Shown: positions 24,494 through 37,601, counted from the stretch's first letter. The stretch is DNA of 38,004 bases from Microbacteriaceae bacterium (GCA_025464895.1 JAODMG010000028.1:1-38004); one strand, 5' to 3'. Notes: generated by a model not told the origin, from the sequence alone. A program made the numbers and translations.

Positions 24494-25189
24494 CTAGCCT
24501 GCCTTCTCCAATCGGGATCGCGCAACCATCTGGCCGAACGCGGAATCGTCGAAGCGGGCGAGCATCGCCACCACCTCGTCGCGATCGACGCTCGCACCGA
24601 ATAGTTCGGTCTTCGGTTCGAATCGCACCCCCTCGGCCAGGGTGCCTGCATTTACGGCATCGAAGCCCATTGCATCGATGACTCCCGCAACGGCCTCGAC
24701 GTCGTCACGGTCGTCCCCGGCGATCGCCAAGGCCTTTCGGTCGGGGTCCCCGGGCGCACGTCCATCTTCGTCGAGTTCGTGGTAGCCCATGTGATTGAAG
24801 GTCTTCACCAGTCGTGCCTCGGGGATGAACGACCGCACGATCTCGCTCGACGACGTGGCTGCATCCTCGAATTCGGAGAGGATCCCATCGATCGGCCACC
24901 AGTAGTTCATCGCATCCACGACCAGCTTGCCGCGGAGGAGCGGCGCCTTGATCGAGCGGAATTTGCCGAGCGGAATGGCGAGGATGACGACATCGGACTC
25001 GGCGATGGCGGTCTCTGCCGTCACGGCATCGGCCCCCGGCGCCAGCACCTGGGTGATCAGGGAGATCTTCTCGGCCGGCCCTGAACCCGCGACCAGGACG
25101 CGATAGCCCGCCGCAATGGCGAGGCGGGCGAGCACGGTGCCGACCTTTCCGACGCCGAGAATCCCAATGGTTCTAATAGCTGTACTCAC
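24494..25189 (-). CDS. F420-dependent NADP reductase-like (NADPH-binding) oxidoreductase
   Basis: GILGVGKVGTVLARLAIAAGYRVLVAGSG Rossmann motif; DVVILAIPLGKF; LVDAMNYWWPIDG; likely GTG start at 25187-25189. Confidence 0.78.
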   Translation of the reverse strand: MSTAIRTIGILGVGKVGTVLARLAIAAGYRVLVAGSGPAEKISLITQVLAPGADAVTAETAIAESDVVILAIPLGKFRSIKAPLLRGKLVVDAMNYWWPIDGILSEFEDAATSSSEIVRSFIPEARLVKTFNHMGYHELDEDGRAPGDPDRKALAIAGDDRDDVEAVAGVIDAMGFDAVNAGTLAEGVRFEPKTELFGASVDRDEVVAMLARFDDSAFGQMVARSRLEKAG

Positions 25190-25298: not shown

Positions 25299-25352
25299 TT
25301 CCGAACGTAACAAGCCGGAAAGAAACTGGCGCTACTGTAACCATTACTACGA
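25299..25352 (+). promoter_or_regulatory. Conserved 54-bp element, copy A (upstream of peptide SBP)
   Basis: TTCCGAACGTAACAAGCCGGAAAGAAACTGGCGCTACTGTAACCATTACTACGA; 42/54 identical without gaps to copy B. Confidence 0.75.
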
Positions 25353-25475
25353 CTAGTCATCGCGCTCTTCGAGGAGCGATTCCGCCGGACAGCCCTACAC
25401 GGACCGGGTCGTGGACGTACTGCCGAATTTTCCCATCACCGCATCCGACGGATGCAGAGAGTAGTGAGGCACTCA

Positions 25476-27035
25476 ATGAAGAAAAGGTTAGGAGCCGTCG
25501 TCGCGATCGCCGTCACGGCGGCGTTGGCGCTTGGAGGCTGCAGTGCTGCAAGCACCGGGTCGACAAGTTCGAGTGGCACTCCCACGAAGGGAGGGAACCT
25601 GACGATCGCGCGGTCAGCGGACATCATCTCGATGAACAACACGACCAACTTCGACAACAACTCGATTCGCGTCATGGAACAGATCATGGAACCCCTGTTC
25701 ATGGTCAGCGCGGATGGCAAGAAGCTGGAGCCGTGGCTCGCCACCAAGTACACGGTGTCGAAAGACAATCTCACCTACACGATCGACCTCCGCAAGGGAG
25801 TGAAGTTCTCGAACGGTAGCCCGATGACGGCCGCCGACGTCAAGTTCTCCATCGACCAGGACACGGCCACCGGCTCAGCGGGTTGGGGCTTCATCAACAC
25901 CGCGATCGACAAGGTCACCGCGGTTGACGACTCCACCGTCACGATCCAGCTGAAGTACCCATGGGCTCCATTGATCGCCGATCTGTCGCTGTTCAGCAAC
26001 GCCATCGTCCCGAACAACTACGGCGGCAAGACCTCCGCAGAGTTCTACACGGCTCCGGTCGGCACCGGTCCGTTCGTCTGGGGCTCCTGGACCAAGGGAC
26101 AGTCGGTGAAGGTGACCAAGAACCCGAACTACTGGCAGGCCGGCAAACCGTACCTGAACAGCGTCACCTGGACTGTCGTCCCGGACGCGAACACGCGGAA
26201 GCTGCAGGTGCAGGGCAAGCAGATCGATGTCGACGACACGCCGGACTGGTCGAGCCTCGCATCGTTGAAGACGACCCCCGGCATCAACGCCGTCACCTTC
26301 CCGTCCACCCAGATGGACTACATCGTCTTCAACGAGCAGAAGGCGCCATTCAACGACGTGCACATTCGTCAAGCCATTTCCTACGCGATCGATCGCGAAG
26401 CGATGGTTAAGGCCGTGCTGTTCGGCAACGGATCGGCCGCGAACTCGCTTCTGGCGCCCGGCGTGCCGTACTACGACAAGAACGCGGGCGGAGCGACCTA
26501 CGACGTGAAGAAGGCCAAGGCGGCGATGGCGCAGTCATCCAAGCCCAACGGATTCACGACCACCCTGCTGATCCGCTCAGGTGACCCGAACCAGACCTCG
26601 ATCGCGCAGATCATGCAGGCCGAGCTCAAGGCAATCGGAATCACTATGAACATCCAGCAGCTCGACCCAACCGCGAACAAGCAGGCCAGACTGGCCTCGA
26701 ACTTCGAAATGGCCTGGTCGTCCTGGACGATGGACATCCCTGACCCGGATGAGTGGACCTCGTTCGCGGTCGACCCCAACGGTGGATCGCACTCGGCGTT
26801 CAGCTACTACAACAACCCGGCGGTCATCTCGCTGAACAGCCAGGCTCAGAAGGAGATCGACCCTACCAAGCGCGCCGACCTCTACGCGCAGCTGCAGGAG
26901 CAGACGAGCAAGGACGCGTTCCTCGCTTACCTCTTCTACTCGCCGTATGTGTACGCCATGACCACCAGCGTCAAGGGTTTCCAGGTAACTCCTCTTGGCA
27001 ACTACCACCTCGAGGATGTCTACAAGACCCCGTAG
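25476..27035 (+). CDS. Peptide/nickel-type ABC transporter substrate-binding lipoprotein
   Basis: Lipobox ALALGGCSAAS; KGGNLTIARSADI; YTIDLRKGVKFSNGSPMTAADVKFSID; NEQKAPFNDVHIRQAISYAIDREAMVKAVLFG. Confidence 0.93.
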   Translation: MKKRLGAVVAIAVTAALALGGCSAASTGSTSSSGTPTKGGNLTIARSADIISMNNTTNFDNNSIRVMEQIMEPLFMVSADGKKLEPWLATKYTVSKDNLTYTIDLRKGVKFSNGSPMTAADVKFSIDQDTATGSAGWGFINTAIDKVTAVDDSTVTIQLKYPWAPLIADLSLFSNAIVPNNYGGKTSAEFYTAPVGTGPFVWGSWTKGQSVKVTKNPNYWQAGKPYLNSVTWTVVPDANTRKLQVQGKQIDVDDTPDWSSLASLKTTPGINAVTFPSTQMDYIVFNEQKAPFNDVHIRQAISYAIDREAMVKAVLFGNGSAANSLLAPGVPYYDKNAGGATYDVKKAKAAMAQSSKPNGFTTTLLIRSGDPNQTSIAQIMQAELKAIGITMNIQQLDPTANKQARLASNFEMAWSSWTMDIPDPDEWTSFAVDPNGGSHSAFSYYNNPAVISLNSQAQKEIDPTKRADLYAQLQEQTSKDAFLAYLFYSPYVYAMTTSVKGFQVTPLGNYHLEDVYKTP

Positions 27036-27047
27036 TACGCCTCACCT

Positions 27048-27080
27048 GAGGGGGCGGTTCCTCGTCGGAGCCGCCCCCTC
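27048..27080 (+). terminator. Intercistronic hairpin after SBP gene
   Basis: gagggggcggttcc-tcgtc-ggagccgccccctc: 14-bp stem with one T-G wobble, 13 nt after the stop codon. Confidence 0.75.
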
Positions 27081-27128
27081 GTTCCACCACCGGCACGTAT
27101 CGGTGACCGCACCAGCAAGCAGGTATTC

Positions 27129-28403
27129 ATGGATGACAGGACCGTCGATACGGACCGATCGCTCGCCGAGCGCCAGGCGCAGGCCCGGTTGAACCTGGCC
27201 GAGGCATCGGAGCGACTCGAGCGATTGGGACGCCCGCTGAACGCCGTCGTCAGATCCATCTCCACTCCACCGCGCGCATCCGACGGGCCGCTGCTCGGTA
27301 TGCCGATCGCCGTGAAAGACATGTTCGATGTCGCCGGCCAGCCGCGCGGCAATGGCAACCCTGAAGACATGGTCGGACCGACCGCTCTGGCCGATGCGCC
27401 CGCCATCACCGCCCTGCGCGCCGCCGGTGCCGATGTCTTCGCGCTCGCGGCGATGCTCGAATACGCGGCGGGTGCCCAGCATCCTGACCTCGCGGAGGCA
27501 CGGAACCCGGTCGACCCCCGGCTGACCGCCGGAGGATCGAGCGGAGGTTCCGCGGCCCTCGTCGGCGCCGGCGTGTGCCCGGCAGCCCTCGGAACCGATA
27601 CCGGCGGCTCGATCCGGCTTCCCGCACACTACTGCGGCGTGGTCGGGTTCAAGCCGAGCTTCGGCACCCTCCCGGTCGACGGCGTACAGCCACTCTCCCC
27701 CACCCTCGACCACGTCGGCATCATCGCCAAAGACGTCCAGACGACCGCGACCGTGTTCGACGCCATGCGCGGCGGTGCAGGCGAGCCGGTGGTTACACCT
27801 CATCTCACGATCGGCGTGCTGGTCGGACAGTTGGCCGACCCCAGGCTCGACCCAGAACTCGCCGCCATCGTGTCGAGTGCTGTCGACACCCTGCGCGCCA
27901 GCGTGACGATCGTCGAAGTCGACTCGACCGCGCTCGATGCGGTGAACGCCTGGATGGGCGACATCATCAGCTACGAGGTCTGGCAGATCCACGGCGCCGC
28001 GATGACCGATCGGCCGGATCATTTCGGTGCGCCGACGGCTCGCAGGTTCCGTTCGGCAGGAACGATCACCGAAACGGAGTATGAGGCGGCGCTCTCCGCG
28101 CGCGACTCCCTTCTCCCCGCGGCGCTCGCCCTGCTCGACGGCGTCGACGTCCTGGTCGGACCTGCCGGACCGTATGTCGCCCCTGCAGTCTCCCCGCCGG
28201 GAGACACCCCCGAAGGAGCGATCGAGGGCATCTTCACCCAGCCATACAACATGACCGGACAGCCGGCGATCGTGCTCCCCTGCGGCACAACGGCAGACGG
28301 ACTGCCGGTCGGGTTGCAGCTGGCCGCAGCCGTCGGGGCGGACGATCTGCTGCTGGCCGCGGCATCCGTGGTCGAACGAACCATCGGGGGAGGCCGACGA
28401 TGA
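27129..28403 (+). CDS. Amidase-signature family hydrolase
   Basis: GMPIAVKDMFDVAG; PRLTAGGSSGGSAALVGAG; LGTDTGGSIRLPAHYCGVVGFKPSFG (Lys/cis-Ser/Ser triad motifs). Confidence 0.93.
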   Translation: MDDRTVDTDRSLAERQAQARLNLAEASERLERLGRPLNAVVRSISTPPRASDGPLLGMPIAVKDMFDVAGQPRGNGNPEDMVGPTALADAPAITALRAAGADVFALAAMLEYAAGAQHPDLAEARNPVDPRLTAGGSSGGSAALVGAGVCPAALGTDTGGSIRLPAHYCGVVGFKPSFGTLPVDGVQPLSPTLDHVGIIAKDVQTTATVFDAMRGGAGEPVVTPHLTIGVLVGQLADPRLDPELAAIVSSAVDTLRASVTIVEVDSTALDAVNAWMGDIISYEVWQIHGAAMTDRPDHFGAPTARRFRSAGTITETEYEAALSARDSLLPAALALLDGVDVLVGPAGPYVAPAVSPPGDTPEGAIEGIFTQPYNMTGQPAIVLPCGTTADGLPVGLQLAAAVGADDLLLAAASVVERTIGGGRR

Positions 28404-28418
28404 CGACATGGGCGCGTC

Positions 28419-28472
28419 TTCCGTACGTAACAAATCGGAAAAGAAAACCCGATACTGTAACCATCAATACGA
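28419..28472 (+). promoter_or_regulatory. Conserved 54-bp element, copy B (upstream of permease operon)
   Basis: TTCCGTACGTAACAAATCGGAAAAGAAAACCCGATACTGTAACCATCAATACGA; ungapped match to copy A. Confidence 0.75.
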
Positions 28473-28536: not shown

Positions 28537-29496
28537 ATGCTCCATCGACTCAGGTTCATCCCGGGGCGCTTGGTCCAATCGATCCCGGTCGCATTCGGTG
28601 TGACCCTGATCGTGTTCTTCATGGCCCGTCTGCTGCCAGGCAATGCCGCACTGGCGATCCTCGGCCAACAGGCGAACGCCGCCAGCGTGGCGGCACTGAG
28701 CAAACAGCTCGGGCTGAACCAGCCGCTGTGGGAACAGTACTTCCTGTTCATCGGACGACTGTTCCAAGGCAACCTCGGTACGAGCCTCACCTACCAGATA
28801 CCGGTGAGCGAGCTGCTCTCCCAGGCGATACCGGTCACCCTGTCCCTCCTCGGACTGGCACTGCTGCTCGCTCTCGTCATCAGCGTCCCCCTCGCCGCCC
28901 TCGCCGCGTTTCGCCCGGGAAGCCCCCGGGATCTCGGCGTGCGCGCATTCACCCTCCTCGGGCAGGGAATGCCGCAGTTCTGGCTCGGCATCATGCTCAT
29001 CCTGCTGCTCGCGATCGGCGTGCCGCTGTTCCCTGTCGGCGGCTACGGCAACTCGCCTGCCGATCATCCGTACTACCTGTTCCTACCGTCACTCACGCTC
29101 GCGATCGCCATGTGCCCGACCATCATCAGGAGCCTTCGCTCGTCGATGATCGACGTGCTGGGGTCCGACTACGTCGGAACGGCACGCTCGAAGGGCTCCT
29201 ATGGGGCCGCGCTGTTCCGCGGCCACGTGCTTCGCAACGCGGCGATCCCGACCGTGTCGGTGATCGGCGTCAACCTCGGCTTCCTGGTCGGCGGATCGCT
29301 CGTCATCGAGAAGGTGTTCGCCCTGCCCGGCCTCGGTTCGATAATGATCAACGCAATCTTCACCAGGGACTTCCCCACCGTCCAGGGGGTCACCCTCTTC
29401 GTCGCCCTCTTCGTCGTCGTCGTCGGAATCCTGACAGACGTCGTCTACACCATGCTCGATCCCCGAGTGGACCTCAGCGGCAAGGAGAACGCGTGA
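28537..29496 (+). CDS. Dipeptide/oligopeptide ABC transporter permease (DppB-like)
   Basis: VTLIVFFMARLLPGNAA; SDYVGTARSKGSYGAALFRGHVLRNAAIPTVSVIG. Confidence 0.92.
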   Translation: MLHRLRFIPGRLVQSIPVAFGVTLIVFFMARLLPGNAALAILGQQANAASVAALSKQLGLNQPLWEQYFLFIGRLFQGNLGTSLTYQIPVSELLSQAIPVTLSLLGLALLLALVISVPLAALAAFRPGSPRDLGVRAFTLLGQGMPQFWLGIMLILLLAIGVPLFPVGGYGNSPADHPYYLFLPSLTLAIAMCPTIIRSLRSSMIDVLGSDYVGTARSKGSYGAALFRGHVLRNAAIPTVSVIGVNLGFLVGGSLVIEKVFALPGLGSIMINAIFTRDFPTVQGVTLFVALFVVVVGILTDVVYTMLDPRVDLSGKENA

Positions 29497-30377
29497 CCAC
29501 CCCAACAGCCATGCTGGTCGCCCACAAGGAGCGACGCCGCGCCACCCGCACCCGCTCGATCAAGGCCTGGTACCGAAACGGTTCGCTCATGGCCGGCATG
29601 ATCATCACCGGTCTGCTCGTCCTGGTTGCCGTCCTCGCGCCGGTGATCGCCCCGTACAGCCCGATCACCCAGCACCTCACCGACGCACTCCAGCCCACGA
29701 GCCCCGCGCACTGGCTCGGCACCGACAAATATGGTCGGGATGTACTGTCCCGGCTCATCTGGGGCGCCCAGGTCGATCTGCGGGTCGGCTTTCTCGCGGT
29801 TCTCATCCCGTTCGTCATCGGTTCGATTCTCGGCGGGATCGCCGGCTACTTCGGCGGGTGGCTCGATACGGTGCTGATGCGGATCGTCGATATCTTCTTC
29901 GCCTTCCCGTTCTACGTCATGGTCATCGTCCTGGTCTTCATCTTCGGCTCAGGAGAGTTCAGCATCTACATCGCCATCGCTGCGGTCTCCTGGGTGTCCT
30001 ACGCGAAAATCGTTCGAGGCGAAGTTCTCATCGCCAAGAAGCAGGACTACGTCGTCGCCGCCCGTCTCGGCGGCATGTCCCACGCACGCATCCTGGTCAG
30101 GCACATCGGGCCGAACGTGCTGTCGCAGGCGATCATCTACGGCATGAGCGACATCGTGATGGACATCATGGCGATCGTCACGCTCGGCTACCTCGGACTC
30201 GGCATCGCACCACCCACCGCCGAGTGGGGAAGCATGATCAACGACGGCCAGGAATTCATCACCACCCATTGGCAGCAGGCGACCATCCCCGGTCTCGTAG
30301 TGGTCGTGACCAGCCTCGGCCTCTCCTGGCTCGGCGATGGCCTCTCTGACCTGCTCAGCCCCGAAAGGAGGAAGTGA
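29493..30377 (+). CDS. Dipeptide/oligopeptide ABC transporter permease (DppC-like)
   Basis: HWLGTDKYGRDVLSRLIWGAQVDLRVG; QDYVVAARLGGMSHARILVRHIGPNVL; GTG start overlapping upstream stop. Confidence 0.93.
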   Translation: MTTPTAMLVAHKERRRATRTRSIKAWYRNGSLMAGMIITGLLVLVAVLAPVIAPYSPITQHLTDALQPTSPAHWLGTDKYGRDVLSRLIWGAQVDLRVGFLAVLIPFVIGSILGGIAGYFGGWLDTVLMRIVDIFFAFPFYVMVIVLVFIFGSGEFSIYIAIAAVSWVSYAKIVRGEVLIAKKQDYVVAARLGGMSHARILVRHIGPNVLSQAIIYGMSDIVMDIMAIVTLGYLGLGIAPPTAEWGSMINDGQEFITTHWQQATIPGLVVVVTSLGLSWLGDGLSDLLSPERRK

Positions 30378-30379
30378 CC

Positions 30380-31368
30380 ATGGCAACACCACTGCTCAGC
30401 GTGTCATCGCTCACCATCGGCATCCGTCGCAAAGGCCAGCCGGACACGGTCATCGTGGACAGCCTGTCGTTCGACATCCAGAAGGGCGAGCGATTCGGGA
30501 TCGTCGGCGAATCCGGTTCTGGAAAGTCCCTGACTCTCCGCGCCATCGCCGACCTGCTTCCGAAGGGCGTCGAAGTGCTCTCCGGCAGCATCCGCTACGA
30601 CGGTGCAGAACTGATCGGCATGCCGGCGGCCCAGCGACGAAAGCTGATGGGTCCGGAGATCGCAATGATCTTCCAGGAGCCGATGACCGCGCTCAATCCG
30701 GTCGTCCGGGTCGGCGAGCAAATCGCGGAGGGGCCCCGTCGCTACCTCGGGCTGTCGAAGCAGGCCGCCGCGGAGCTCGCCATCGAGATGATGGCGAAGA
30801 CCGGCATCCCCGATCCGGCTCGCCGGGCCCGTGCCTACCCGCACGAACTCTCTGGCGGACTCCGACAGAGGATCATGATCGCGATGGCGCTGTCCTGCGG
30901 CCCGAAACTCCTGCTCTGCGACGAACCGACCACCGCCCTCGACGTGACGGTGCAGCACCAGGTGCTCAGGGTGCTCGAAGAGCTGTGCGCCGACTCGGGC
31001 GCATCACTCGCCTTCGTCACCCACGACCTCGCCGTGGTGAATCAGACCTGCACGGACCTCGCGGTCATGTATGCCGGCCACATCGTCGAATCCGGGCGAG
31101 TCGCCGAGGTGTTCTCCGATCCGCGTCATCCGTACACGAAGGGCCTGCTCGACTCCGCTCCGGACTTCGACCAGCCCGATCGTGAACTGGTTTCGATCCC
31201 CGGATTCCCGCCGAACCTGGCCGCGCGGCCGAGCGGATGCCCGTTCGCCCCCCGGTGCCAGTTCGCGGTCGAGGCCTGCACGACGGCGATGCCACCGACG
31301 GACGAGGTGGCACCAGGCCACTTCGCGGCCTGCTTCGAGTCCGCCCGTATCTTCGAGGGGGCTGCAGC

Positions 31369-31372
<4 letters not shown>
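30380..31372 (+). CDS. Oligopeptide ABC transporter ATPase (DppD-like)
   Basis: [45 protein letters not shown]-terminal cysteine-containing oligo_HPY-like region. Confidence 0.93.
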
Positions 31373-32388
<1,016 letters not shown>

Positions 32389-32399
32389 GAGCACCACAG

Positions 32400-33236
32400 G
32401 TGAAGGTTTGGATGTCGTTGGACATGGAGGGCGTCGCCGGCGTCGTCGATTGGGAGCAGTGCCGCCCGGGAAGCGGCGCAGCGTATGCGCTCGGTTGTGA
32501 GCTACTGCAGGACGAGGTCAACGCGGCGATCGAGGGCGCCATCGCCGGCGGAGCGACCGAGATCGTCTTGAACGACTCGCACAGCAGGATGGCCAACCTC
32601 GACCCGCGGAAGATCGCCGGAGGCGCGCAGTACCTCTCCGGGCGGCACAAGCCGCGGTACATGATGCAGGGCCTCGACGAGTCATTCGACGCCGCATTCT
32701 TCGTCGGCTACCACGGTTCGATCTCTGGCAGACCGTCGACCATGTCGCACACCTACAACCCCGAGGTATTCTCCGGGGCCAAGATCAACGGGACGTACGT
32801 CGGGGAGAGCGGCATCAACGCCCTCGTCGCCGACCACTATCGGGTTCCGATCGCGTTCGTCTCCGGCGACTCGGTCACCTGGGAGGAGACTGAGCCGTTC
32901 GCGGCGGGCGGGGTCAACGTCGTGACCAAGACCTCGATCACGAGGGCGAGCGCCCTGAACCTGCATCCGACCGAGTCCTGCCGACTGATCCGGGAAGGCG
33001 CGGAGCTCGCGCTCACCCGGGTGGCCGGCGGCAGCGTGGCACTGCCGAACATCGCACGCCCCGCGGTCCTCGACCTCGAATTCCAGACCGCGGACATGGC
33101 GGAGGTCGCGACCTGGGCGCGTGACGTCGAACGCACCGACGAGCGCGGGGTGCGCATCGAGGGCGACGATCTCCTGTCGATCTTCACGTCATTCGTCGCC
33201 GTCAACTACATCACTCGTCAAGCTGGGGGTCGCTAA
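32400..33236 (+). CDS. M55-family D-aminopeptidase (DppA-like)
   Basis: VKVWMSLDMEGVAGVVDWEQ; IVLNDSHSRMANLDP; FFVGYHGSISGRPSTMSHTYNP; GESGINALVADHY. GTG start. Confidence 0.9.
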   Translation: MKVWMSLDMEGVAGVVDWEQCRPGSGAAYALGCELLQDEVNAAIEGAIAGGATEIVLNDSHSRMANLDPRKIAGGAQYLSGRHKPRYMMQGLDESFDAAFFVGYHGSISGRPSTMSHTYNPEVFSGAKINGTYVGESGINALVADHYRVPIAFVSGDSVTWEETEPFAAGGVNVVTKTSITRASALNLHPTESCRLIREGAELALTRVAGGSVALPNIARPAVLDLEFQTADMAEVATWARDVERTDERGVRIEGDDLLSIFTSFVAVNYITRQAGGR

Positions 33237-33239
33237 GAA

Positions 33240-34190
33240 ATGCCTGTCCACGAAGAAGCAATCGCTCGTCCTGCCGGCATCCGGCTCTGGGATGTCGCGC
33301 CGCAGAACGGTTTCGCTCTCGCCCTTCACGGCGGAGCCGGCGGCCTGATCGAGGAGCTGTCGAGCGAGGGGACGGATGCGTTCGAAGAGGGCCTGGCCAT
33401 CGCCCACGCCGCCGGTCGCGCGATTCTGGAGCGAGGCGGCCACGCACTGGACGCCGTCTGTGCCACTGTCGAGCAATTGGAGAACCACCGGCTGTTCAAC
33501 GCGGGACGCGGCGCGGCACTGACCGCGCTCGGCGGGGTCGAACATGACGCATCGGTCATGGACGGATCCGGCGAGGCCGGCGCGATCGCGGCCTCCCGCC
33601 ACGCCAAGAACCCGGTCTACGTCGCCCGCAGCGTGATGGAGAAGAGCCCGCACCTGTTCCTGGTCTCCCCCAGCAAAGAGATGGTGATCGACTGGGGCCA
33701 CGAGACCGCCGAACAGGAGTACTTCATCACAGAGCCGCGTCAGCGCCAGCTGGCAAGGATCCAGGCCAGCCAGCTGGTCGCGCCGAGGCATGGAACCGTC
33801 GGAGCGGTTGCCCGCGACTCCCATGGACGGGTGGCAGCGGCCACCTCGACCGGCGGCATGGTCAACCAGCAGCTCGGTCGGGTCGGCGACACGCCGATCA
33901 TCGGCGCGGGCAACTACGCTCGCAACGAGTTCGCCGCAATCTCCTGCACGGGAGAGGGAGAGGCATTCATCCGCGGCGTCGTCGCGTACGACATCGTCGC
34001 CAGGATGCGCTACCTCGGCTCAGAGCTGCCGGAGGCGGTCGCCGCGACGATCGAAACCGAACTCACGGCGAATCACTCGAGTGGCGGCCTGGTCAGCGTC
34101 GGCGGGGACGGCCGAGTCGTTGTCGCACACAACTCCCCACGGATGTTCGCCGCGTTCGAAGACGAGAACGGACTGGTACTGCTTACCTGA
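33240..34190 (+). CDS. Ntn-hydrolase isoaspartyl peptidase / plant-type L-asparaginase
   Basis: FALALHGGAGG; FNAGRGAALTALGGVEHDASVMDG; APRHGTVGAVARDSHGRVAAATSTGGM (Thr nucleophile). Confidence 0.92.
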   Translation: MPVHEEAIARPAGIRLWDVAPQNGFALALHGGAGGLIEELSSEGTDAFEEGLAIAHAAGRAILERGGHALDAVCATVEQLENHRLFNAGRGAALTALGGVEHDASVMDGSGEAGAIAASRHAKNPVYVARSVMEKSPHLFLVSPSKEMVIDWGHETAEQEYFITEPRQRQLARIQASQLVAPRHGTVGAVARDSHGRVAAATSTGGMVNQQLGRVGDTPIIGAGNYARNEFAAISCTGEGEAFIRGVVAYDIVARMRYLGSELPEAVAATIETELTANHSSGGLVSVGGDGRVVVAHNSPRMFAAFEDENGLVLLT

Positions 34191-34273: not shown

Positions 34274-35164
34274 ATGGCGATGATCAACGACGAGATCTTC
34301 ACGCGCATGGGTGAACTCAGCCCAGCGGAGAAAAAAGTGGCACGCGCGCTGCTCTCCAGCTACCCGGGAGCGGGTCTGGAGAGCGCGGCGACCCTCGCCA
34401 AGTCGGCTGGCACCAGCACGCCGACGGTTCTCCGCCTGGTCAGCCGTTTGGGGATCGGAAGCTATCCAGACTTCCAGCGCAGGCTGCGCGACGAGATCAC
34501 CAACCACATGAAGAGCCCGGTGAGCCGCACCGAGCACGGCAAACTTCACCGGGACGAGGACGGCCTCCTGCAAGGGGCGGTCGCCGACAAGGTGGCCATG
34601 ATCGAGAGCATGGCCCTCAGCGTGCCGCCGAGTGAGTTCGACCGTGCGGTACAGGTGCTCGCATCCAGGCCACGCCACGTCACCATCTCCGGCGGATACT
34701 TCACCAGGTACCTGGCGATGCTGCTCGCGACCCAGCTGGACCAGGCCATCGACAACGTCGACTTCATCGCAGAGCCACTCGGGCGGGACGTTGGCAAGTT
34801 CCTGAGGCTCGGCCCCGGATCGGTGGCGATCATCCTCGACTTCCGTCGGTACGAGCTGTTGTCCACCCGCGCGGCGGAGCTCGCGAAGAGGCAGGGCGCG
34901 ACGGTCATCGTTATCACCGACCAGGAGCTCTCCCCCGCTGTAGACAGCGCGGACATAGTGCTCCCGGTCACCGTCGACGGCATCCCGTTCGACTCGGTCG
35001 TCGGCGTCGTTGCCCTCCTCGAGACCCTCGTCGAGGCGGTGCTGCTCGCCGCGGGCGATCGGGGAATCGCCCGGATGAAGCTTTGGGAAGAATCCGTGCT
35101 CCTTGCGCGTGCGTACCGCGACTCCGCGGAGAACCACAGTATCGAAGAGAGAGAAGAAGACTGA
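34274..35164 (+). CDS. RpiR/MurR-family transcriptional regulator (HTH + SIS domain)
   Basis: ELSPAEKKVARALLSSYPGAGLESAATLAKSAGTSTPTVLRLVSRLGIGSYPDFQRRLRDEI; SIS-type C-terminal half. Confidence 0.9.
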   Translation: MAMINDEIFTRMGELSPAEKKVARALLSSYPGAGLESAATLAKSAGTSTPTVLRLVSRLGIGSYPDFQRRLRDEITNHMKSPVSRTEHGKLHRDEDGLLQGAVADKVAMIESMALSVPPSEFDRAVQVLASRPRHVTISGGYFTRYLAMLLATQLDQAIDNVDFIAEPLGRDVGKFLRLGPGSVAIILDFRRYELLSTRAAELAKRQGATVIVITDQELSPAVDSADIVLPVTVDGIPFDSVVGVVALLETLVEAVLLAAGDRGIARMKLWEESVLLARAYRDSAENHSIEEREED

Positions 35165-35165
35165 C

Positions 35166-35864
35166 ATGGCAGAACTCGACGGAATGGTCGCGGTAGTGAC
35201 CGGGACGGCCCAGGGCATCGGACGCGAGATCGCCGATCGAATCAAGGCGAGCGGTGCGACGGTGCACGAGGTCGACAAGGATACGGTCGACCTCAGCGAC
35301 TCGGCCGCGGTCGAAGCGTTCTTCGCGGGCATCGGCGACGTCGACATCCTGGTCAACGTCGCGGGTGGGGTCGTAGGCCAGACGCACAAGCCGATCGACG
35401 AGGTGACCGATGACTCGTGGAACGCGGTGATCGCCGCGAACCTGACGACCACGATGAATTGCACGAGGGCTGCCGCCAGGGTGATGAAGAAGCGCGGATA
35501 CGGCCGGATCGTGAACATCTCCTCCGGAGCGGGACGCAGCGTGAGCCTCACCGGCATCCAGGCCTACACGACGGCGAAGGCCGCCCAGATCGGATTCACC
35601 AGGCAGATGGCTCACGAACTCGGCCAGTACGGCATTACCGTGAACTGCATCGCCCCTGGATTCGTCCTGTCGAACCCGACCACGCAGGCACAGTGGGAGA
35701 GCTACGGCGAGGACGGGCAGCGCGCACTCCTCGAGCGGATCGCCACCCGCAAGACCGGAACTCCGGCGGACATCGCCAGGGGGGTCGAGTTCTTCGTCGC
35801 CCCCGACGCCGGCTGGGTTAGTGGCCAGACCATCTCGATCGACGGGGGGCACTCGCTCTTCTAA
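35166..35864 (+). CDS. Classical SDR oxidoreductase
   Basis: VVTGTAQGIGREIADRI; VNVAGG; NISSGAG...YTTAKAAQIGFTRQMAHEL; YxxxK motif intact. Confidence 0.92.
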   Translation: MAELDGMVAVVTGTAQGIGREIADRIKASGATVHEVDKDTVDLSDSAAVEAFFAGIGDVDILVNVAGGVVGQTHKPIDEVTDDSWNAVIAANLTTTMNCTRAAARVMKKRGYGRIVNISSGAGRSVSLTGIQAYTTAKAAQIGFTRQMAHELGQYGITVNCIAPGFVLSNPTTQAQWESYGEDGQRALLERIATRKTGTPADIARGVEFFVAPDAGWVSGQTISIDGGHSLF

Positions 35865-35894: not shown

Positions 35895-37601
35895 ATGACG
35901 ACTCCAGAATCGGATGCCTCCGCGCGCCTCGCCGCGCTTGGCGAAAGCTACTTCACCACTCAGCACAGCTACGACCCGTACAACGCAACCCTGCTCGGCC
36001 TCGGCGAGTTCGATTACCTGCCGGGTGACCCGAGCCTTGATGCCAGCGAGAAGGCGTCGGCCGATCTCGCCGCAATCGGAGAACAGGTTGCCGCTATCGA
36101 TTCGGCTGCCCTGAGCGAGGCCGACCTGATCGACCACAGCGTTCTGACGGTCCTGGTGCGCGGTGCGCAGCAGGAGGCACAGCACTCGCTCTGGGCCGGC
36201 AACGCTTCCGCGAAGAGCTATGTGAGCCGCCAGGCTCTCATCTTCCAGACCATGCCGGCGATGACCGTCACCGACGACGACAGTGCAGAGCGCTACCTCG
36301 ATCGTCTCTCCGGCGTCGGCGGGGTGCTGGCATCCCTCGGCGACCGTTACGCGGTCGAAGCCGGTCGCGGACGGATTCCCACCGCGCTCGGCATCACCCA
36401 CTCCGTGCAGCAGCTCGAGGGATACCTTGCCCTCGGCGTGCAGGGCGACGCGCTTCTTGCGCCGGTCCGGGCATCCGGAAACGCGGCGGCCATCGAGCGG
36501 GCGACGAGCATCCTGGAGAACGACGTGCACCCGGCCATGGCGGCTCTCGCCGCACGCCTGCGCACCGAATTCCTGCCAGGGGCGCGTCCAAACGACCAGG
36601 TAGGCATTAAGTTCATCGCCGGCGGAGACGAAGGCTACGCTGCGACGGTCGCCCGTCACACGACGACAACCCTCACTCCAGCGGAGATCCACCAGATCGG
36701 GCTCGACGTGCTCGAGGAGATGAAGCCGGAGTGGAGCGAGGTCGGCCAGCGCGCAATCGGCGAGGGCGACTTCACCGTCATCGCAGAACGGATGCGCGCG
36801 GACCTGTCGCTGCGGTTCGACACGAGCGAGCAGATCGTCGGGATGGCGCAGTCCGCCCTCGACCGCGCCAACGCGGTTCGCAGGCAGTACTACCCGGACT
36901 ACGACATCCCCGAGTGCGTCATCGAGGAGATCAACCCGATCGATGCGGAGCACACGGCGCTCGCCTACTATCGGCCGCCGGCCGTTGACGGCAGCAGGCC
37001 CGGCGCGCACTGCCTGGTCGCATCCGACCCGCAGGAACGGTTCCGCTTCGAATACGAAGCGCTCGCCTTCCACGAGTCGGTTCCTGGCCACCACATGCAG
37101 CTCGCGATGGCGCAGAAGCTCGACATCCCACGCTACCGCCGGTACCTCGACGTCGAAGCCTGCAGTTTCAACGAGGGCTGGGGCCTCTACTCCGAGCAGT
37201 TCGCAGACGAGATCGGGCTGTATAGCGACGATGTCTCCCGGCTCGGGATGCTGTCGTTCCGAGCGCTCCGCGCCTGCCGCCTGGTCGTCGACACCGGCAT
37301 CCACCACTTCGGCTGGTCCAGGGAGCGGGCGATCGAGTTCATGTGGGACCACACCGCGACGACGCGTTCGCATGTGCGCAACGAGATCGACCGCTACATC
37401 GCCTGGCCAGGCCAGGCACTCGCCTACATGATCGGCCGCCGCGAGATCCTGCGGCTTCGCGAGCAGGCAAAACAGCAGCTCGGCTCTCGCTTCTCGATCA
37501 TCGATTTCCACGGCACGCTGCTCGGCAGCGGCTCGGTTCCGCTCTCGGTACTCGGCGACAACGTCGCGCGCTGGACATCCAGCGTCGCGCAAGACAACTA
37601 A
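35895..37601 (+). CDS. DUF885-family protein (putative metallopeptidase)
   Basis: ALAFHESVPGHHMQLAMAQ (HExxx..HH) and FNEGWGLYSEQF, both typical of DUF885. Confidence 0.9.
   Translation: MTTPESDASARLAALGESYFTTQHSYDPYNATLLGLGEFDYLPGDPSLDASEKASADLAAIGEQVAAIDSAALSEADLIDHSVLTVLVRGAQQEAQHSLWAGNASAKSYVSRQALIFQTMPAMTVTDDDSAERYLDRLSGVGGVLASLGDRYAVEAGRGRIPTALGITHSVQQLEGYLALGVQGDALLAPVRASGNAAAIERATSILENDVHPAMAALAARLRTEFLPGARPNDQVGIKFIAGGDEGYAATVARHTTTTLTPAEIHQIGLDVLEEMKPEWSEVGQRAIGEGDFTVIAERMRADLSLRFDTSEQIVGMAQSALDRANAVRRQYYPDYDIPECVIEEINPIDAEHTALAYYRPPAVDGSRPGAHCLVASDPQERFRFEYEALAFHESVPGHHMQLAMAQKLDIPRYRRYLDVEACSFNEGWGLYSEQFADEIGLYSDDVSRLGMLSFRALRACRLVVDTGIHHFGWSRERAIEFMWDHTATTRSHVRNEIDRYIAWPGQALAYMIGRREILRLREQAKQQLGSRFSIIDFHGTLLGSGSVPLSVLGDNVARWTSSVAQDN

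Follow-up and report, generated by a model that had tools for sequence, protein, structure and literature searches.

Two 54-bp elements in a peptide-utilization gene cluster of a Microbacteriaceae bacterium (GCA_025464895.1) are probably, on the basis of comparative sequence evidence, tandem operators of an RpiR-family protein that the cluster itself encodes (positions 34274 to 35164), which would most likely repress the promoters of the solute-binding protein (SBP) gene and of dppB. The window (i.e., the whole 38,004-nucleotide stretch analyzed, JAODMG010000028.1:1-38004) carries the cluster SBP-amidase-dppBCDF-M55-asparaginase_2-RpiR-SDR-DUF885 with every gene on the + strand. The initial annotation placed one element before the SBP gene and the other before dppB, which holds, but the "split" transport system that it described is a single same-strand cluster. 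The features are as follows.

25299 to 25352, + strand: module copy 1, upstream of the SBP gene, with orthologous copies in relatives
25306 to 25321, + strand: block 1 of copy 1, CGTAACAAGCCGGAAA, defined by column conservation and self-similarity at offset 30
25336 to 25351, + strand: block 2 of copy 1, TGTA-N8-TACG, HexR/RccR-like, at the best palindrome center
25476 to 27035, + strand: peptide-type extracellular solute-binding protein (SBP_bac_5; Pfam PF00496)
27047 to 27081, + strand: strong RNA hairpin after the SBP stop codon (fold z = -4.3)
27129 to 28403, + strand: amidase (Pfam PF01425), found between SBP and dppB in some relatives only
28419 to 28472, + strand: module copy 2, between the amidase stop and the dppB start, with orthologous second copies in relatives
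28426 to 28441, + strand: block 1 of copy 2, defined by column conservation and self-similarity at offset 30
28456 to 28471, + strand: block 2 of copy 2, TGTA-N8-TACG, with TACTGT at 28453 to 28458
28537 to 32388, + strand: dppBCDF-like permease and ATPase genes (Pfam)
32400 to 33236, + strand: M55 D-aminopeptidase (Pfam PF04951)
33240 to 34190, + strand: asparaginase_2/beta-aspartyl-peptidase-like gene (Pfam PF01112)
34274 to 35164, + strand: RpiR-family regulator, HTH_6 and SIS domains (Pfam PF01418 and PF01380, above cut-off)
35166 to 35864, + strand: short-chain dehydrogenase (SDR), with its own module copy in Homoserinimonas
35895 to 37601, + strand: DUF885 protein (Pfam PF05960)
Window end, + strand: putative alpha/beta-hydrolase-like ORF, named from reading its sequence

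The two elements align without gaps at 42/54 identity, and the alignment decays beyond their edges. Compared with all other 54-mers on both strands of the window, either copy reaches at most 28/54 (mean, about 13; standard deviation, about 3). The pattern TTCCGNACGTAACAANNCGGAA with up to three mismatches has two matches in the window, i.e., both elements (shuffles expect 0.00), and a 69-position model built from orthologous sites likewise has only these two matches in the 2.83-Mb, 239-contig assembly. The element pair, its block structure, the exact 30-nt spacing between GTAAC boxes in both copies, and the fading similarity outside the element were all claims of the initial annotation and were all reproduced here; it had also named a genome-wide scan as a check for a dispersed repeat, a reading that is rejected because there are only two copies genome-wide. 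Other matches in this genome with one or two mismatches were dropped, as the second block is absent. At the other dpp operon of the genome (L005/L082), ACGTAACACGACTGAA upstream of the dppB-like gene has a different spacing and a PWM score at background.

Over 31 sites, the consensus reads TTCCRAACGTAACAAn4GAAAAn10TAYTGTAATnAnnnTACR, with TTCC, GTAACA, GAAA, TA-TGTAA, and TAC constant. Self-comparison of the profile singled out one direct repeat, at offset 30 (-3.9, against -11.4 for the runner-up); the best-scoring palindrome center, 45.5, corresponds to TGTA-N8-TACR at positions 38 to 53. The module thus consists of two related 16-bp blocks (positions 8 to 23 and 38 to 53), which lie 30 bp apart and span 46 bp. 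Block 1 of copy 1 is the upstream half of this direct repeat, preceded by the conserved TTCC at 25299 to 25302, and block 2 of the same copy overlaps a TAnnnT -10-like sequence, TACTGT (25333 to 25338). Block 2 is a pseudopalindrome of the HexR/RccR type, i.e., TGT(A)..(T)ACA arms around a 7- to 8-nt center, and reads TGTA-N8-TACA at 17 sites, TACG at 13, and GACG at 1; block 1 alone has weak symmetry and is not of this type. The TTCCG/CGGAA inverted repeat that was initially proposed survives in part. Its TTCC is kept in relatives, but the constant part of the other arm is GAAA rather than CGGAA, since position 19 is G in just 12 of the 31 sites. We therefore ruled it out as the key inverted repeat; it is partly a chance feature of the window copies. 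Similarly, the second GTAAC is present in both window copies, but relatives usually carry GTAAT there.

A pattern scan of 300 Microbacteriaceae genomes gave about a dozen matches with the second block at the same spacing, in neighborhoods with the same cluster and the element upstream of SBP; strong module matches were found in 13 of 400 genomes of the family. Footprinting of 31 named loci, taken via the RpiR alignment, showed that orthologous SBP and dppB upstream regions keep both the blocks and their spacing, and this conservation, together with the lack of dispersal, supports the original reading of the element as an operator/promoter module. The element occurs in Curtobacterium, Clavibacter, Glaciihabitans, and (as a variant) Homoserinimonas and, beyond Microbacteriaceae, in Modestobacter, Klenkia, a Geodermatophilaceae genome, and an Actinoallomurus metagenome-assembled genome (MAG). 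A profile trained on 23 Microbacteriaceae sites only gave scores of 20 to 57 for the sites of other families and of Homoserinimonas (background maximum, -0.6 over 417,000 positions) and a weak score of 5 for the Microlunatus site. Most relatives have the SBP copy alone. A second copy upstream of dppB occurs in seven clusters with an amidase between SBP and dppB (i.e., the window, G201, G220, G113, G123, G237, and G285); it was not seen upstream of dppB in G392, where the amidase is present, and Clavibacter has it there without the amidase. In a class-wide scan of 395 genomes, no confident module was found outside the window's own genome, and six weak partial matches near E 0.03 were obtained besides the window's sites. 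Weak matches in G216, in G268:C6, and in a few genomes of the class (15 to 16 bits) were counted as noise.

In the Microbacteriaceae MAG RYN_99 (G237), a paralogue of the SBP-dppBCDF operon is also preceded by a module (L080:7969-8022; PWM score, 36.7; background, <0); the regulon is therefore expanded in this genome. In the Actinoallomurus MAG, a near-identical promoter segment precedes an M55 gene and a dppB-like gene on separate contigs (L105:164-217 and L149:359-412), reflecting either a promoter duplication or an assembly artifact.

Four lines of evidence uphold the initial suggestion that the RpiR protein is the regulator: co-occurrence, modules located with RpiR but without dpp, an unlinked M55 site in Microlunatus, and covariation with the RpiR helix-turn-helix (HTH). 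An RpiR protein of at least 54% identity is encoded in 12 of the 13 module genomes, compared with 18 of the 400 family genomes overall (Fisher P = 8e-18, a value confounded by linkage), and the contig of the 13th module genome stops before the RpiR position. As most of these cases are linked clusters, the co-occurrence is not independent evidence; the comparisons below, including that with the glnA boxes, address the link more directly. In the Actinoallomurus MAG, the module lies upstream of M55-asparaginase-RpiR, and in Microlunatus a weak one lies upstream of asparaginase-RpiR, with dpp genes absent from the contig in both cases. The only two matches at E <= 1 in the 5.1-Mb Microlunatus genome are this asparaginase-RpiR promoter and an M55 gene on another contig; both sites are weak (E about 0.02 to 0.03), and the M55 site has a 31-nt spacing.

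Three variant sites occur in Homoserinimonas, one ahead of each of two SBP genes and one ahead of the SDR gene; they retain the 30-nt spacing and still rank as the top three of the locus when this genome is left out of the model. Its block 1 reads GTTAT, and its RpiR HTH is altered (LAK/R to LAD and LRL to LRF). Wherever a site was detected alongside an LA[K/R] HTH, GTAAC is retained, even at 54 to 57% RpiR identity. These data support a model in which the operator changes along with the RpiR HTH, although the independent events are few and Frigoribacterium (RpiR identity, 57%), in which no confident site was found, is only suggestive. No module was found in the 11.8-Mb genome of Nonomuraea, whose RpiR is 69% identical with a canonical HTH (150 of 191 candidates scored), and the module scan of Arthrobacter, where RpiR is present, gave no match. 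Distant RpiR genes (<40% identity; L097 to L100) were set aside, having neither an orthologous dpp cluster nor a site. Two further sequences were recorded at these loci: a fourth, weak site in Homoserinimonas (L122:11786-11839; TGTAATCAATAATACA; score, -1.3), about 60 bp upstream of an alpha/beta-hydrolase gene, and, upstream of asparaginase_2-RpiR in Arthrobacter silviterrae (L128:8955-9000), TTGTATCGAATATTACAA, a HexR-like palindrome (TTGTA-N8-TACAA) without the tandem module.

A repeat without regulatory function, whether recently duplicated or dispersed, is an extremely improbable explanation of the two copies. They are similar and near each other, and a duplicated promoter segment is present in the Actinoallomurus MAG, but the genome has two copies only, these diverge mainly in their spacers, and orthologous positions are kept block by block at a fixed spacing over divergent genera. 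We also consider unlikely a composite promoter, with block 1 serving as a GlnR (or MtrA) box that activates under nitrogen limitation and RpiR binding block 2 only. As in the GlnR/MtrA boxes of actinomycetes, GTAAC is followed six bases on by GAAA- (PMC10704036, PMC12323332); block 1 reads GTAAC-n6-GAAAA in 20 of the 31 sites, while two sites of Modestobacter have GTAAC-n6-GTAAT, sequences close to the GlnR boxes gTnAc-n6-GaAAc and GTnAC-n6-GTnAC (PMC10704036), and nitrogen control of peptide use is physiologically sensible. Measured against GTnAC-n6-GnAAC with a terminal C and 11-bp phasing, however, block 1 fails over the 31 sites: the terminal C (position 24) occurs in only 1, and the 11-bp phased array with a third box, as in the genome's own glnA promoter GTAACATCCCGGAAACAATAGCGACAC, is absent. 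Moreover, block 1 resembles block 2 at offset 30, and its conservation reaches upstream to TTCC. GTAAC-n6-GAAAC is retained at glnA in this genome, Homoserinimonas, Frigoribacterium, Glaciihabitans, Microlunatus, and Nonomuraea; the altered block 1 therefore does not track GlnR. In Homoserinimonas the glnA box is perfect while block 1 is GTTAT, and in Frigoribacterium the glnA box is constant while block 1 was not found; specificity across genomes is therefore not that of GlnR. The joint shift of block 1 and the RpiR HTH in Homoserinimonas, which the glnA box does not share, argues against GlnR/MtrA. The MtrA site GTAACCNNNNNGTAACC was not found in the window copies, and the sequence nearest to it is the second copy of Clavibacter (GTAAC-n6-GTAAC). 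Tested against glnA promoters and phasing, GlnR/MtrA as the sole regulator is disfavored. At its glnA promoter (L150; C238:575-601), this genome has a phased array of GlnR boxes of canonical form, usable as a nitrogen-control marker.

With RpiR as the regulator of both blocks, the two related 16-bp sites, 30 bp apart, would face about the same side of the helix and could be bound by one RpiR dimer each or by a single tetramer bridging both over the 46-bp span. If TAnnnT (TAYTGT) serves as the -10 element, block 1 would fall at roughly -39 to -24, around the expected place of a -35 element, and the downstream TGTA-N8-TACR site would cover the -10-like hexamer. We infer this promoter position, since scanning the element for a sigma-70 consensus promoter gave none; ECF-type and sigma-70 readings of GTAAC were likewise discarded for lack of a fitting spacing or consensus. 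RpiR would thereby repress the SBP promoter and an internal dppB promoter, and hence its own gene, until an effector derived from imported peptides relieves the repression. Repression by occlusion with autoregulation is most likely, because block 2 covers the -10-like hexamer, the layout is MurR-like, and block 2 is HexR/RccR-like. Most characterized RpiR proteins are repressors, which counts against a rather doubtful alternative, namely, that RpiR bound to the module activates transcription, as proposed for SpNanR, an RpiR-family activator (PMC12713135). Activation would suit the absence of a recognizable -35 hexamer and the position of block 1 near that of a class II activator; on the other side, block 2 overlaps TACTGT, the -10-like sequence, as well as the predicted start, the occlusion geometry proposed for MurR (PMC12713135). 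The hairpin after the SBP gene may act as an attenuator or a 3'-end stabilizer and would be consistent with higher SBP expression (i.e., SBP-versus-permease stoichiometry) and with an internal promoter being required.

Among NCBIfam models, HexR is nearest to the RpiR protein, although the score is far below cut-off. HexR and RccR of Pseudomonas bind TTGT-N7-8-ACAA and TGTAGT/ACTACA sites, respectively (PMC5489143). Block 2 is a similar TGTA/TACA-type pseudopalindrome with a 7- to 8-nt center (PMC5489143), and the systems share an RpiR-family HTH and a local metabolic regulon that includes the regulator's own cluster. In contrast, block 1 of the module is weakly symmetric, its two sites are arranged as a direct repeat at a fixed 30 bp, the targets are peptide uptake genes rather than central carbon genes, and the sensor has DxRRxEL in place of the SxSGxS phosphate loop. 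For Escherichia coli MurR, a tetramer bridging two adjacent operators over the -35 and -10 elements, 47 bp, has been proposed (cited in PMC12713135). The layout is comparable (two adjacent sites with a 46- to 47-bp span, predicted over -35 and -10), whereas the target genes differ and the window sites form a direct repeat with a 14-bp gap instead of 17 bp. IolR of Caulobacter, which recognizes GGAA-N6-TTCC (PMC2597717), is also an RpiR-family protein with a local catabolic regulon and two motif copies in one promoter, but its arm order is opposite, its spacing differs, and the TTCC..GGAA pairing of the window is not conserved.

Alignment with PDB entry 8ju9 showed that the SIS phosphosugar loop (S-x-S-G type) is absent from the RpiR protein (34274 to 35164). 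Opposite the phosphate loop ISQSGRS, the protein reads LDFRRYE (around residues 188 to 195), and DxRRxEL is invariant in seven RpiR orthologues. RpiR-family entry 3sho also lacks the loop in this alignment, so the loss does not exclude membership in the family. Each of the four family members compared by structure senses a phosphorylated carbohydrate (PMC12713135); since the loop is replaced by the invariant DxRRxEL, a phosphosugar effector is doubtful here. We tentatively propose an RpiR subfamily that may have lost phosphosugar sensing, may respond to a peptide- or D-amino-acid-derived ligand (e.g., a beta-aspartyl or D-amino dipeptide), and may control an uptake and degradation regulon via the fixed 30-bp tandem operator.

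The module thus appears to represent a conserved operator type with a small peptide-utilization regulon, apparently undescribed, within the known class of RpiR-controlled catabolic operons; a literature search of limited reach found no description of such a regulon. For a D-aminopeptidase/beta-aspartyl-peptidase/dipeptide-transport cluster in actinobacteria, it offers an operator, a regulator, and a small regulon that can be tested. The cluster with the module occurs in soil- and plant-associated actinobacteria, including Curtobacterium and Clavibacter. An RpiR protein that lacks the phosphosugar loop and is encoded among peptide genes makes the question of its effector concrete. In addition, an NADP/F420-type oxidoreductase gene (24494 to 25183) lies divergent from SBP in the window, and a 49% homologue adjoins asparaginase_2-RpiR in A. 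silviterrae (L128:8148-8855); the oxidoreductase possibly belongs to the same pathway as the cluster.
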